Shown here one piece after another: positions 10,754 through 16,830 of a DNA stretch of 64,000 nt; within the stretch, counting starts at the first letter, position 1, and each line of letters begins with the position of its first letter. The stretch lies in the NCBI RefSeq assembly GCF_000620865.1, contig NZ_KK211190.1:2770914-2834913 (forward strand), in the 5' to 3' direction. The translations under genes were made by a program, and so were the position numbers. Under the pieces are notes generated by a model. That model was given only the letters and a program-made list of their open reading frames with translations. It ran no database searches and was not told where the DNA came from. This DNA comes from Exiguobacterium sibiricum 7-3 (GTDB taxonomy: Bacteria > Bacillota > Bacilli > Exiguobacteriales > Exiguobacteriaceae).

Positions 10754-10781
10754 GGTACCCCCTATACCTATATGATATACT
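10754..10781 (+). promoter_or_regulatory. cop operon promoter and likely CsoR operator
   Basis: Extended -10 TGATATACT (hexamer 10776-10781). Just upstream lies GGTACCCCCTATACC (10754-10768), with GGTA/TACC ends and a C-run, resembling the G/C-run CsoR operators of Gram-positive copZA promoters. It sits in the -35/-10 interval, so binding would block transcription until Cu(I) is sensed. Confidence 0.6.
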
Positions 10782-10816
10782 CAACGTATCAACTACTCCG
10801 GAAAAGAGGTGTACTT

Positions 10817-11113
10817 ATGACTCATGATCATCCCCTTGTTCCCCGTTCCACTGAAGAACAAGATGCCTTATTAAAACGTTTAAAACGAATTGAAGGTCAA
10901 GTCCGCGGCATTGCTAACATGGTCGAGGAAGACCGGTATTGTATCGATATCCTGACTCAAACCGCATCGATTCAAGCTGCACTCCGGCAAGTCGAGTTGC
11001 AGGTCATCGAACGTCACGTCAAGATGTGTATGCACGATGCAGCGACCGGTGAACAGGATACCGGTGTCTACGTCGACGAATTGATGGCCGTTATTGCCCG
11101 TCTCAAGAAGTAA
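10817..11113 (+). CDS. csoR: copper-sensing transcriptional repressor CsoR
   Basis: A 98-residue all-helical CsoR/RcnR-family repressor. The Cu(I) ligand set Cys42-His67-Cys71 is complete (RYCIDIL and ERHVKMC), with LKRIEGQVRGI in helix 1. Cu(I) binding releases it from DNA. The start is ATG 10817, behind AGAGGTG; the frame is open 15 codons earlier without a site. It is the first gene of csoR-copA-copZ and is expected to regulate the operon itself through the operator upstream. Confidence 0.93.
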   Translation: MTHDHPLVPRSTEEQDALLKRLKRIEGQVRGIANMVEEDRYCIDILTQTASIQAALRQVELQVIERHVKMCMHDAATGEQDTGVYVDELMAVIARLKK

Positions 11114-11125
11114 GGAGGGATTTCG

Positions 11126-13252
11126 ATGTCAAAAACGATGGAACTGAATATCGAAGGCATGACGTGTGCAGCCTGCTCGGCTCGGATTGAAAAGGTGTTG
11201 AACCGGATGGACGGAGTCGAAGCCACCGTCAACCTGCCGCTCGAAACAGCACGGATTGCTGTTCCGGAAGAGATGGATGAACAACTGATTTTAGATAAGA
11301 TTAAAAAAATCGGATATGGTGCCACCATTAAGACGGCACCACACGAACAGGTACAAAACCGCCGGATGCTCTACCGCTTTTGGATTGCCGCTTTCTTGTC
11401 CCTGCCGTTACTGCTCAGTATGATCTCGCACATTCCGAACAGTCCGATCCACCTCCCGTGGCTTATGAATCCGTGGATTCAGTTCGCCCTGGCGACGCCA
11501 GTCCAGTTCATCATCGGTGCACCCTTCTATGTCGGTGCCTATAAAAGTCTCCGGAGCGGAAGTGCCAACATGGACGTCCTGGTCGTACTCGGTACTTCCG
11601 CAGCCTACTTCTATTCTGTTGCCGAAATGATGGTTCATCCCTTGATGCCGAATCTCTACTTTGAGACGAGTGCGGTTCTGATTACCCTCGTCCTGCTCGG
11701 GAAAGTACTGGAGGATCGTGCCAAACAACAAACAACCGGTGCGATCAAAAGTCTTCTTTCCTTACAGGCGACGGATGCCGTCGTCCTGGAGCATGGCGTC
11801 GAGCGGATGGTTTCGCTTGATCAGGTCCAACCCGGTATGCAATTAATCGTCAAACCCGGTCAAAAAATTCCGGTCGATGGTGTCATCACAGCTGGTGATG
11901 CCTATCTGGATGAATCGATGTTGACCGGCGAACCGCTCCCGGCTCATAAAGGGATCGAGGATGTTGTAATCGGCGGGACCTTGAACACGAACGGTCACCT
12001 GACGATTCAAGCCACGAAAGTCGGTCAGCAGACGATGCTTGCAAGCATCATCCGTGTCGTCGAACAAGCCCAAACAGAAAAAGCCCCTATTCAACGTCAG
12101 GCGGACCGGATTTCCGGCATCTTTGTTCCAATCGTCGTCGCCATCGCGCTCGTGACGCTTGCCGTCTGGTGGTGGACGACCGGTTCATTCGCTGAAGCGA
12201 TTCGTCCGGCGATTGCCGTTCTCGTCATTGCCTGTCCCTGTGCTCTCGGGCTCGCGACTCCGACGTCGATCATGGTCGGAACCGGTAAAGGCGCAGAACA
12301 CGGGGTACTGTTCAAGGGCGGAGCGCAACTCGAATCGTTACAACACGTGGATGCTGTTGTCTTTGACAAGACGGGAACATTGACGATCGGACGCCCGGTC
12401 GTCATTGAGACGTTTGGACAAGAACAGGCCCTGGATTTTGCAGCTGCCCTTGAAAAAAAATCGGAACATCCACTCGCTCATGCAATCACGGAAGAGCGCG
12501 ACGTCGTCTTTGATATCGAACATTTCACCGTCGATCCCGGACGCGGTGTCCGGGGAATGATTATGAAACAAGACATCATGGTCGGGTCGGCACGGATGAT
12601 GGAAGAACACGGCTTATCCTTACCCGACTGGACATCCATCGGAGCAACGGTTGTGTATGTCACCGTAAACGGGACGATCGAAGCGGGTTATGCCATCCGG
12701 GATGAATTGAAACCGACTACCAAACAGGTCATTCAGGAGATTCAGCAGACCAAAGCGGTTTATTTGTTGACCGGAGACCGGCGAGAAGTCGCCTTACAAC
12801 TCGCAACGGAACTTCAGATTCCACCGACCCATGTCTTCTCCGATGTCCTGCCGATTGAAAAAGCCGATCACATCAAAGCACTTCAATCGAATGGGCAACG
12901 GGTCGCGATGGTCGGAGATGGTATCAATGATGCGCCGGCCCTTGCGACAGCAAATGTCGGGATTGCCCTCGGCAGCGGGACAGATGTCGCTCTCGAAGCA
13001 GCAGACGTCACATTGCTGGGACATGATCTGCAACAAGTCATCACCGCCATTCGACTGAGTGAACAAACGATGAAGAACATTCGGCAAAACCTGTTTTTCG
13101 CACTCGGCTATAATGCGATCGGGATTCCGATTGCCTGTCTCGGTCTGCTCGCCCCTTGGGTCGCAGGAGCCGCAATGGCATTCAGCTCTGTCTCTGTCGT
13201 CACAAATGCGTTACGCTTAAAACGTATTCCACTATCCAAAGGAGGAAACTAA
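11126..13252 (+). CDS. copA: Cu(I)-exporting P1B-type ATPase CopA
   Basis: A 708-residue P1B-ATPase. One N-terminal heavy-metal-associated domain has GMTCAAC (Cys14, Cys17); many Bacillales CopA proteins have two such domains and are about 90 residues longer. Transmembrane CPC is at 370-372, the phosphorylated Asp414 lies in DKTGTLT, and the ATP-binding hinge is GDGINDAPALA. It pumps Cu(I) out of the cytoplasm. A strong GGAGGG site precedes it, 12 bp after csoR. The copZ chaperone gene begins two bases after its stop, so the three genes form one copper-resistance operon. Confidence 0.95.
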   Translation: MSKTMELNIEGMTCAACSARIEKVLNRMDGVEATVNLPLETARIAVPEEMDEQLILDKIKKIGYGATIKTAPHEQVQNRRMLYRFWIAAFLSLPLLLSMISHIPNSPIHLPWLMNPWIQFALATPVQFIIGAPFYVGAYKSLRSGSANMDVLVVLGTSAAYFYSVAEMMVHPLMPNLYFETSAVLITLVLLGKVLEDRAKQQTTGAIKSLLSLQATDAVVLEHGVERMVSLDQVQPGMQLIVKPGQKIPVDGVITAGDAYLDESMLTGEPLPAHKGIEDVVIGGTLNTNGHLTIQATKVGQQTMLASIIRVVEQAQTEKAPIQRQADRISGIFVPIVVAIALVTLAVWWWTTGSFAEAIRPAIAVLVIACPCALGLATPTSIMVGTGKGAEHGVLFKGGAQLESLQHVDAVVFDKTGTLTIGRPVVIETFGQEQALDFAAALEKKSEHPLAHAITEERDVVFDIEHFTVDPGRGVRGMIMKQDIMVGSARMMEEHGLSLPDWTSIGATVVYVTVNGTIEAGYAIRDELKPTTKQVIQEIQQTKAVYLLTGDRREVALQLATELQIPPTHVFSDVLPIEKADHIKALQSNGQRVAMVGDGINDAPALATANVGIALGSGTDVALEAADVTLLGHDLQQVITAIRLSEQTMKNIRQNLFFALGYNAIGIPIACLGLLAPWVAGAAMAFSSVSVVTNALRLKRIPLSKGGN

Positions 13253-13254
13253 TC

Positions 13255-13461
13255 ATGAAAGAAACAACTTTAACTGTCGTCGGAATGACATGTAATCACT
13301 GTAAAGCAAGCGTTGAATCGGCGTTGAACGAACTCAACGGGGTAACGAATGCAACCGTCTCCCTTGCAGACAACAATGTCACAGTGACACACCAAGACGT
13401 CGCGACAGAACGTCTCGTCGAAGCGATTGAAGAAATCGGATATGACGTTCCGACTGCCTAA
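13255..13461 (+). CDS. copZ: copper chaperone CopZ
   Basis: A 68-residue single HMA domain with GMTCNHC (Cys13, Cys16) and the ferredoxin-like pattern ending EEIGYDVPTA. CopZ binds Cu(I) in the cytoplasm and passes it to CopA. GGAGG overlaps the last codons of copA, and the ATG follows its stop by two bases. A terminator closes the operon. Confidence 0.94.
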   Translation: MKETTLTVVGMTCNHCKASVESALNELNGVTNATVSLADNNVTVTHQDVATERLVEAIEEIGYDVPTA

Positions 13462-15284: not shown

Positions 15285-15295
15285 GCAAACTGAAT

Positions 15296-15337
15296 AAACA
15301 AAGGGACCTCTCCATTGATGGAAAGGTCCCTTTGTTT
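15296..15337. terminator. bidirectional terminator, hemAT / sortase
   Basis: 14-bp perfect stem (15296-15309 with 15324-15337) between convergent genes, T-rich on both strands. Confidence 0.88.
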
Positions 15338-15941
15338 ATTTTTCCTGTTCGGCGGTCACAACCAATCGTTGATCGTATCCTTTCGATTGGGTGAACGTTC
15401 CGACACAGGTGATTAACGTTAAACGTTGCGCAAGTGTCGCACCAAAAATTGATCCGACAGGTGCCTGGTCAACGGGATAAGACATCACGTTCGTCACCAC
15501 GTATGAAACCTGTTCTCCCGTTTTAGAATTGACTTCAATCCGTTGTCCTCGTTTCACTTTTGCCAAGTCATAAAAGACAGCCGGACCATTCGTATCATCT
15601 AAATGCCCTGCCAGAATGACATTGCCGGTCTGATTGGCTTTTGCTCCGTACTGGTACCAACCGACTTGATCTGTCTGCTTCGGAACATCCATCCGCCCTT
15701 TGTCATCTCTTCCAACGACTTCGACTTTTGCATCCACATCGATGGTCGGAATCTTTAGACGGTTCGGTACAAATGTTGCCACTGCTTCTGCTTCAGACTT
15801 TGGTGCCGGTGATTCGACGACAGGTGTTGCCGGTTCCTCAGAGCGTGGAGGAGGAGAAGTTTCCTCTGCTCCTCCACATCCTGCAAGCAACACGGTAATG
15901 AATAACAAGAGGTTACGCGTTTTGTTTACGACGGACGACAT
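15336..15941 (-). CDS. class F sortase with lipoprotein signal
   Basis: A 201-residue sortase-fold transpeptidase. The catalytic set is complete: His113 in ILAGHLDDTNGPAVFYDL, Cys179 in LTLITCVGTF, Arg192 in YDQRLVV; the patterns fit class F. The N-terminus (NLLLFITVLLAGC) carries a lipobox with Cys22 instead of a plain membrane anchor, followed by a Pro/Glu-rich linker (about 25-55), so the enzyme is predicted to be a lipoprotein. The ATG at 15941 lies 29 bp inside the upstream DUF4397 gene, so the two are translationally coupled. That neighbour ends in an MPDTG sorting signal and is the obvious substrate. Confidence 0.87.
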   Translation of the reverse strand: MSSVVNKTRNLLLFITVLLAGCGGAEETSPPPRSEEPATPVVESPAPKSEAEAVATFVPNRLKIPTIDVDAKVEVVGRDDKGRMDVPKQTDQVGWYQYGAKANQTGNVILAGHLDDTNGPAVFYDLAKVKRGQRIEVNSKTGEQVSYVVTNVMSYPVDQAPVGSIFGATLAQRLTLITCVGTFTQSKGYDQRLVVTAEQEK

Positions 15942-16707
15942 AAGCTGTCCCAACAAGTGCAGCTCCAGCAAGTGCTACAAGTGCCCAAGTTGTTGCCATC
16001 GATGACGTTTCAGTTGTTCCGCCAAGACCTGTGTCCGGCATTGCTGCCATTTCACCGCCGTCCGGAATCAAGAGGACGTCAAAGGCTGGTTCGCCTTCAA
16101 GTAGCCCGATTGCGAGTGCTGTATAGTTTTTACCGCTGTCGAGTTTGATGCCGTCGAGTGCTTTAACGACATCCGTTGCACCGGCAGGTCGTACTTCAAG
16201 ATCGTACGTACCGGCATCCAGTGTACCGTAATCCGAGACTTTCGAGAATTCGAGGTCGCTGAAGAGTGGGTCTCCACCTTTTGGTGCGACATCAACGGCT
16301 GGTGCGTCCGGTGCAAAGTGAGCGACACGGACCATTGATTTTCCATCTTCACCTTTGCCGTTATCTTCCATGACAGCAAGTTTAATGTCTGCCAATTTAC
16401 CGATTGCCGCAACAGAATAGAATTTTCCGGCTTCGATGTTGAGTGTTTGAGAAAGTACAGGATCTTTTGTTGTACCGGCTGCGAAGACTTCTACTTTATG
16501 TTCTCCGGCTGGGAGAGTGAGATAATCTGTGACGGCTTTAAATTCTGCTCCTGAGACTGCTTTTTTGCCATCGACGGCGATGTCCACTGCTGGAGCATCA
16601 GGTGAAGCGTGAATCACACGAACCATTGCATCGTCCGCTGCACCTACCGGGAGCACAAATAGTGCGAATAGCAGAGCAGCTGTGACGAAAGATAAGAGTT
16701 TCTTCAT
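15913..16707 (-). CDS. secreted DUF4397 protein with MPDTG cell-wall sorting signal
   Basis: A 264-residue surface protein. Signal peptide MKKLLSFVTAALLFALFVLP ends near VGAADD. Two DUF4397 repeats follow, starting MVRVIHASPDAPAVDIAVDG and MVRVAHFAPDAPAVDVAPKG. The C-terminus has MPDTG (from residue 223), a Ser/Thr linker, a hydrophobic helix and RRKQNA, the order of an LPxTG-type sorting signal with Met in place of Leu. The start is ATG 16707 after AGAGGTGG. The coupled sortase downstream probably anchors it to peptidoglycan. The role of DUF4397 is not known to me; it is a beta-sandwich-like extracellular domain. Confidence 0.85.
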   Translation of the reverse strand: MKKLLSFVTAALLFALFVLPVGAADDAMVRVIHASPDAPAVDIAVDGKKAVSGAEFKAVTDYLTLPAGEHKVEVFAAGTTKDPVLSQTLNIEAGKFYSVAAIGKLADIKLAVMEDNGKGEDGKSMVRVAHFAPDAPAVDVAPKGGDPLFSDLEFSKVSDYGTLDAGTYDLEVRPAGATDVVKALDGIKLDSGKNYTALAIGLLEGEPAFDVLLIPDGGEMAAMPDTGLGGTTETSSMATTWALVALAGAALVGTAYVVRRKQNA

Positions 16708-16795
16708 CTTTTTTCCACCTCTCATGTCATGATGTATTTCGCTCTCAAACCAACAAATCTTTTTTACGCTTTACTTTACTGAAAGAAACTTTTTT

Positions 16796-16830
16796 GTGGT
16801 GACACAGAAAATATTTCCCTCGTGGTGACA
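16796..16830. repeat. pair of direct repeats upstream of the sortase-substrate operon
   Basis: GTGGTGACA occurs at 16796-16804 and 16822-16830, 26 bp apart, about 90-120 bp upstream of the DUF4397 start codon. The spacing of roughly 2.5 helical turns is compatible with a regulator binding tandem sites; no such regulator is identified. Confidence 0.5.

Follow-up and report, generated by a model that had tools for sequence, protein, structure and literature searches.

Two overlapping genes of Exiguobacterium sibiricum 7-3 probably form a surface-anchoring module, in which a lipoprotein sortase joins an MPDTG-tagged DUF4397 protein to the cell wall. We give this reading a probability of about 0.72. 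The pair lies in a window of 64,000 nucleotides, the whole stretch of DNA that was analysed; the lipobox, catalytic triad, predicted fold, gene overlap, conserved pairing and sorting motif can all be read from sequence, and the local features are as follows.

15295..15338, minus strand: intrinsic terminator 3' of the sortase gene, strong, with a 20-bp stem
15336..15941, minus strand: class F-like sortase gene, 201 aa from its ATG, with alternative TTG starts at 15953 and 15956
15366..15368, minus strand: catalytic Arg192
15405..15407, minus strand: catalytic Cys179
15603..15605, minus strand: catalytic His113
15774..15875, minus strand: flexible Pro/Glu/Ser-rich linker, residues 23-56
15876..15887, minus strand: lipobox LAGC, residues 19-22, with predicted lipidation at Cys22
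15913..15941, minus strand: overlap of the DUF4397 and sortase genes, 29 nt from the ATG or 41-44 nt with a TTG start
15913..16707, minus strand: DUF4397 substrate gene, 264 aa, secreted, with two DUF4397 domains and a C-terminal sorting signal
15919..16002, minus strand: predicted hydrophobic C-terminal helix of the DUF4397 protein, residues 236-263, running into RRK
16027..16041, minus strand: MPDTG sorting motif, residues 223-227, placed from the translation and lying within MPDTGLGG

The enzyme has the His-Cys-Arg triad and sortase beta-barrel of the C60 sortases, and matches PF04203 with 83 bits. A preliminary description of this DNA had named a full catalytic set of His113, Cys179 and Arg192; all three residues are found at these positions and are invariant in 76 diverse homologues. 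Cys22 and Cys179 (numbered from the ATG) are the only cysteines of the protein. Its AlphaFold model has a sortase fold (pLDDT 88.9; best PDB match E 5.8e-10), and all 50 of the 50 PDB matches listed are sortases. Among NCBIfam class profiles, class F (NF033748) scored best with 131.3 bits, followed by E with 39, GN with 30, and two further profiles with 28 and 26 (D). The class F assignment of the preliminary description therefore stands as the best-scoring class, but 131.3 bits falls below the curated NF033748 cut-off of 166 bits, so we term the enzyme class F-like and not a full class F member. That cut-off was reached in none of 400 Bacilli genomes, 98 of which held a match below it. SrtF of Propionibacterium/Cutibacterium acnes shares the best-scoring class, the sortase fold and the triad, but uses LPQTGE (PMC7451113) where the partner motif here is MPxTGxGG, and the enzyme here bears a lipobox in place of a plain anchor. 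What class F sortases do physiologically is described as unknown (PMC13251363). The class D sortase YhcS of B. subtilis likewise acts specifically on a substrate, YhcR, whose motif (LPDTS) is non-standard (PMC12445088), but the sortase class (class D scores only those 26 bits here) and the motif are different.

The presumptive substrate has the three parts of a sorting signal, pentapeptide, hydrophobic span and basic tail, and the earlier claim of MPDTG, a hydrophobic helix and RRK at its C-terminus was correct, by translation and by the predicted helix. In the model, MPDTG sits in a low-confidence stretch upstream of this helix and the terminal RRKQNA. The rest of the protein matches PF14344 in two stretches (161 bits, Pfam search) and is modelled as a tandem beta-sandwich, with pLDDT above 80 across most of residues 31-210. 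The closest solved fold found by structure search is the tandem Ig-like extracellular domain of PepT1/PepT2 (5a9i; TM 0.72 by target, E 2.6e-7, 16% identity), a likeness that we take as one of fold. The C-terminus, like those of other MPxTGxGG partners, weakly matches the NCBIfam GVDTG_CTERM sorting domain (NF058571; 22.7 bits here), but all matches seen fall under its 29-bit cut-off and the partner motif is MPxTG, not GVDTG.

The two genes are probably translationally coupled. The 29-bp overlap previously reported is right when counted from the ATG, and is identical in all 14 congeneric loci tabulated. The start codon itself is less certain: TTG codons at -41/-44 are preceded by a better Shine-Dalgarno-like sequence, here and in several orthologous loci, which leaves both the true start and the numbering of "Cys22" uncertain. 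With either start the overlap does not reach the lipobox; the overlapping gene therefore imposes no constraint on it, and we rejected the overlap as the cause of lipobox conservation.

The pairing of sortase and substrate is conserved across the Bacilli. We assembled 172 related sortase loci from 81 whole genomes, 51 named loci and a 400-genome scan of Bacilli; many are from Exiguobacterium, so the loci are not independent. The partner pattern required P, T/S/A, G and xG, and placed no restriction on the first residue or the second glycine. An xPxTGxG protein was encoded directly upstream in 164 of the 172 loci, against 1/144 in the downstream control and 2/172 antisense, which rules out chance adjacency. 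The first motif residue of these 164 partners is Met in 141, Ala in 19 and Leu in 4, upholding the non-Leu first position proposed earlier, and the second glycine of xGG is present in 152. The partners comprise 82 long unnamed proteins, 53 DUF4397 proteins and 29 small tail-less proteins. With Exiguobacterium's family left out, an MPxTGxGG DNA pattern was found in 45/60 genomes with a class F-like sortase versus 21/302 without one (Fisher p 2.5e-28, uncorrected for relatedness). At one locus (L115, genome G016) the DUF4397 gene and the 5' end of the sortase gene are both missing, and a transposase gene adjoins the remnant. In many genera of Bacilli, the conserved adjacent gene and its fixed extended motif provide a testable substrate for each enzyme.

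Whether each enzyme serves only its neighbour is a separate matter. The genome encodes three sortases. A second class F-like sortase (310 aa, with a membrane anchor) lies directly behind the gene of a 458-aa MPNTGNGG protein; no sorting signal was seen adjoining the third. We sought MPxTG signals by DNA pattern and by an MPxTG-tail profile, TIGR01167 (LPXTG anchor) being too insensitive, and found four MPxTGxGG proteins: the DUF4397 protein, the 458-aa protein, a near-copy of the latter and a related protein of 481 aa. With four such proteins and two such sortases in one genome, the dedicated one-enzyme, one-substrate module of the preliminary description is unsupported. Both class F-like sortases might redundantly anchor all four proteins, adjacency then reflecting co-expression and not specificity, and it is in keeping with this that two of the four lack an adjacent sortase. 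We consider such sharing possible but somewhat doubtful, as each sortase holds its own partner type over long periods (on a 100-row tree the partner type changes at least six times), the sortase N-terminus and the DUF4397 gene were lost together in G016, and in a sister Exiguobacterium genus the DUF4397 partner alone has APETG while the long partner still has MPETG.

This sister genus (g2) also bears on how the motif may be read. Conservation of the motif in orthologues is partial: DUF4397 partners have MP(D/E)TG in the genus itself and MPxTG in other families, MPxTGxG being kept outside g2, but have APETG or APDTG within it. The g2 sortases paired with these proteins have no lipobox, and IFA replaces IFG in the loop preceding the catalytic strand; the residue after Ile-Phe is Ala in 19/19 APETG-type pairs and Gly in 121/141 Met-first pairs. 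In the enzyme of the module this Gly is residue 167, within IFGAT. From S. aureus SrtA, we take the Ile-Phe-Gly loop to line the pocket that would receive the first residue of the motif. Only one lineage shows the Gly-to-Ala change, which counts as a single event, and we rejected it as proof for that reason. Pairs with MPxTG and Gly on one side and APxTG and Ala on the other would allow recognition of the first motif position to be tested directly.

The tail-less partners raise a different question. These 29 small, secreted, His/Lys-rich proteins, encoded just ahead of class F-like sortase genes in Brevibacillus, Aneurinibacillus, Paenibacillus, Fontibacillus and Cohnella, have M/LPKTGxGGAS-type ends with neither membrane helix nor charged tail. 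Their median length from signal to motif is 49 residues, of which 23% are Lys and 14% His, and they stop at most 14 residues past the motif start, as in MPKTGMGGASE. A terminator-like hairpin lies between the partner stop and the sortase gene in 28/29 loci, so we rejected a hidden, frameshifted tail; three-frame translation of six of these loci likewise showed no tail before the sortase start. The hairpin suggests that more substrate than enzyme is made. At another locus (L073, genome G051) a class F-like sortase is apparently split by a frameshift next to an intact MPKTGMGG gene.

We are evenly divided on whether these enzymes constitute a distinct Bacilli sortase branch, about half of it lipid-anchored, with its own code MPxTGxGG and with the tail-less MPKTGxGGAS proteins among its natural substrates. 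If so, the sortase would capture diffusing substrates through residues beyond the cleaved bond and not through membrane retention, and such natural partners would run counter to the view that a sorting signal must have a membrane span and a charged tail. The tail-less, Lys-rich partners of related sortases would also suit an enzyme that is mainly a protease, or that attaches its partner to a non-peptidoglycan target such as lysines on nearby proteins, since release or polymerisation fits them better than classical anchoring does; for the sortase studied here we consider this unlikely, as its DUF4397 partner itself bears a classical membrane-held signal.

Returning to the proposed module, its lipid anchor is predicted from sequence. 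The N-terminus MSSVVNKTRNLLLFITVLLAGC fits the strict Gram-positive lipoprotein pattern G+LPP, as the preliminary description's lipobox at Cys22 would require, and the genome encodes Lgt and Lsp; signal, lipobox and pathway genes are thus those of bacterial lipoproteins, the cargo here being a sortase. No G+LPP lipobox match was found in the other two sortases of the genome. The Pro/Glu linker described earlier is also present, 34 residues judged Pro/Glu/Ser-rich by eye and having no regular structure in the model. Among 14 congeneric orthologues LAGC is 100% identical, against a mean pairwise identity of 38% for the linker and 82% for the sortase domain. More widely, conservation of the lipobox is mixed: it is present in 34/34 DUF4397-paired sortases outside g2, from several families, but in 0/19 of those in g2 and in only 83/172 related sortases overall (by pattern with a few by-eye corrections; 53 by the strict G+LPP pattern), with at least 11 changes on the poorly resolved 100-row tree. 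As the sister genus and about half of the wider group do without it, the lipid anchor is not essential to the enzyme. A real sortase and substrate with an ordinary uncleaved signal anchor and an unlipidated Cys22 is improbable: the same-genome paralogue does have a plain hydrophobic anchor and the sister genus lacks the cysteine, but the strict pattern match, an invariant LAGC beside a diverging linker, the same lipobox in distant Bacilli and the presence of Lgt and Lsp all argue for lipidation.

The lipidation, cleavage, wall attachment and acceptor that we infer for the lipoprotein sortase and its substrate would fit together as follows. The DUF4397 protein, with its two Ig-like beta-sandwich domains, would leave the cell by its Sec signal, the C-terminal helix keeping it in the membrane. 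Exported as a lipoprotein, the sortase would receive diacylglycerol on Cys22 from Lgt and be cut before this residue by Lsp, and the linker would lift the catalytic domain above the membrane. As a member of the class F-like branch of Bacilli that uses the sorting code MPxTGxGG, the enzyme would read MPDTG together with the downstream xGG; Cys179 would cleave between Thr and Gly and the DUF4397 protein would be linked to a cell-wall amine. Positioning a sortase by means of a lipid anchor and a long linker would be novel. Literature searches, for which most subscription papers lay outside coverage, returned nothing relevant on MPxTG signals, DUF4397 or lipid-anchored sortases; the sortase/MPxTG pairing is widespread and, as far as we found, undescribed in related bacteria.

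About 2 kb from the module, at 10772-13461 of the window, lie genes reading as CsoR, a copper P-type ATPase and a CopZ-like chaperone. At a distant site in the genome, the gene of the 481-aa MPNTG protein (L306) adjoins genes reading as CopC/CopD-type. A metal link for MPxTGxGG substrates is only a guess. Elsewhere in the same genome (L034, G000:C7:402541), a 506-aa protein ends in LPQAG, a helix and RR, and is a possible substrate of the third sortase.
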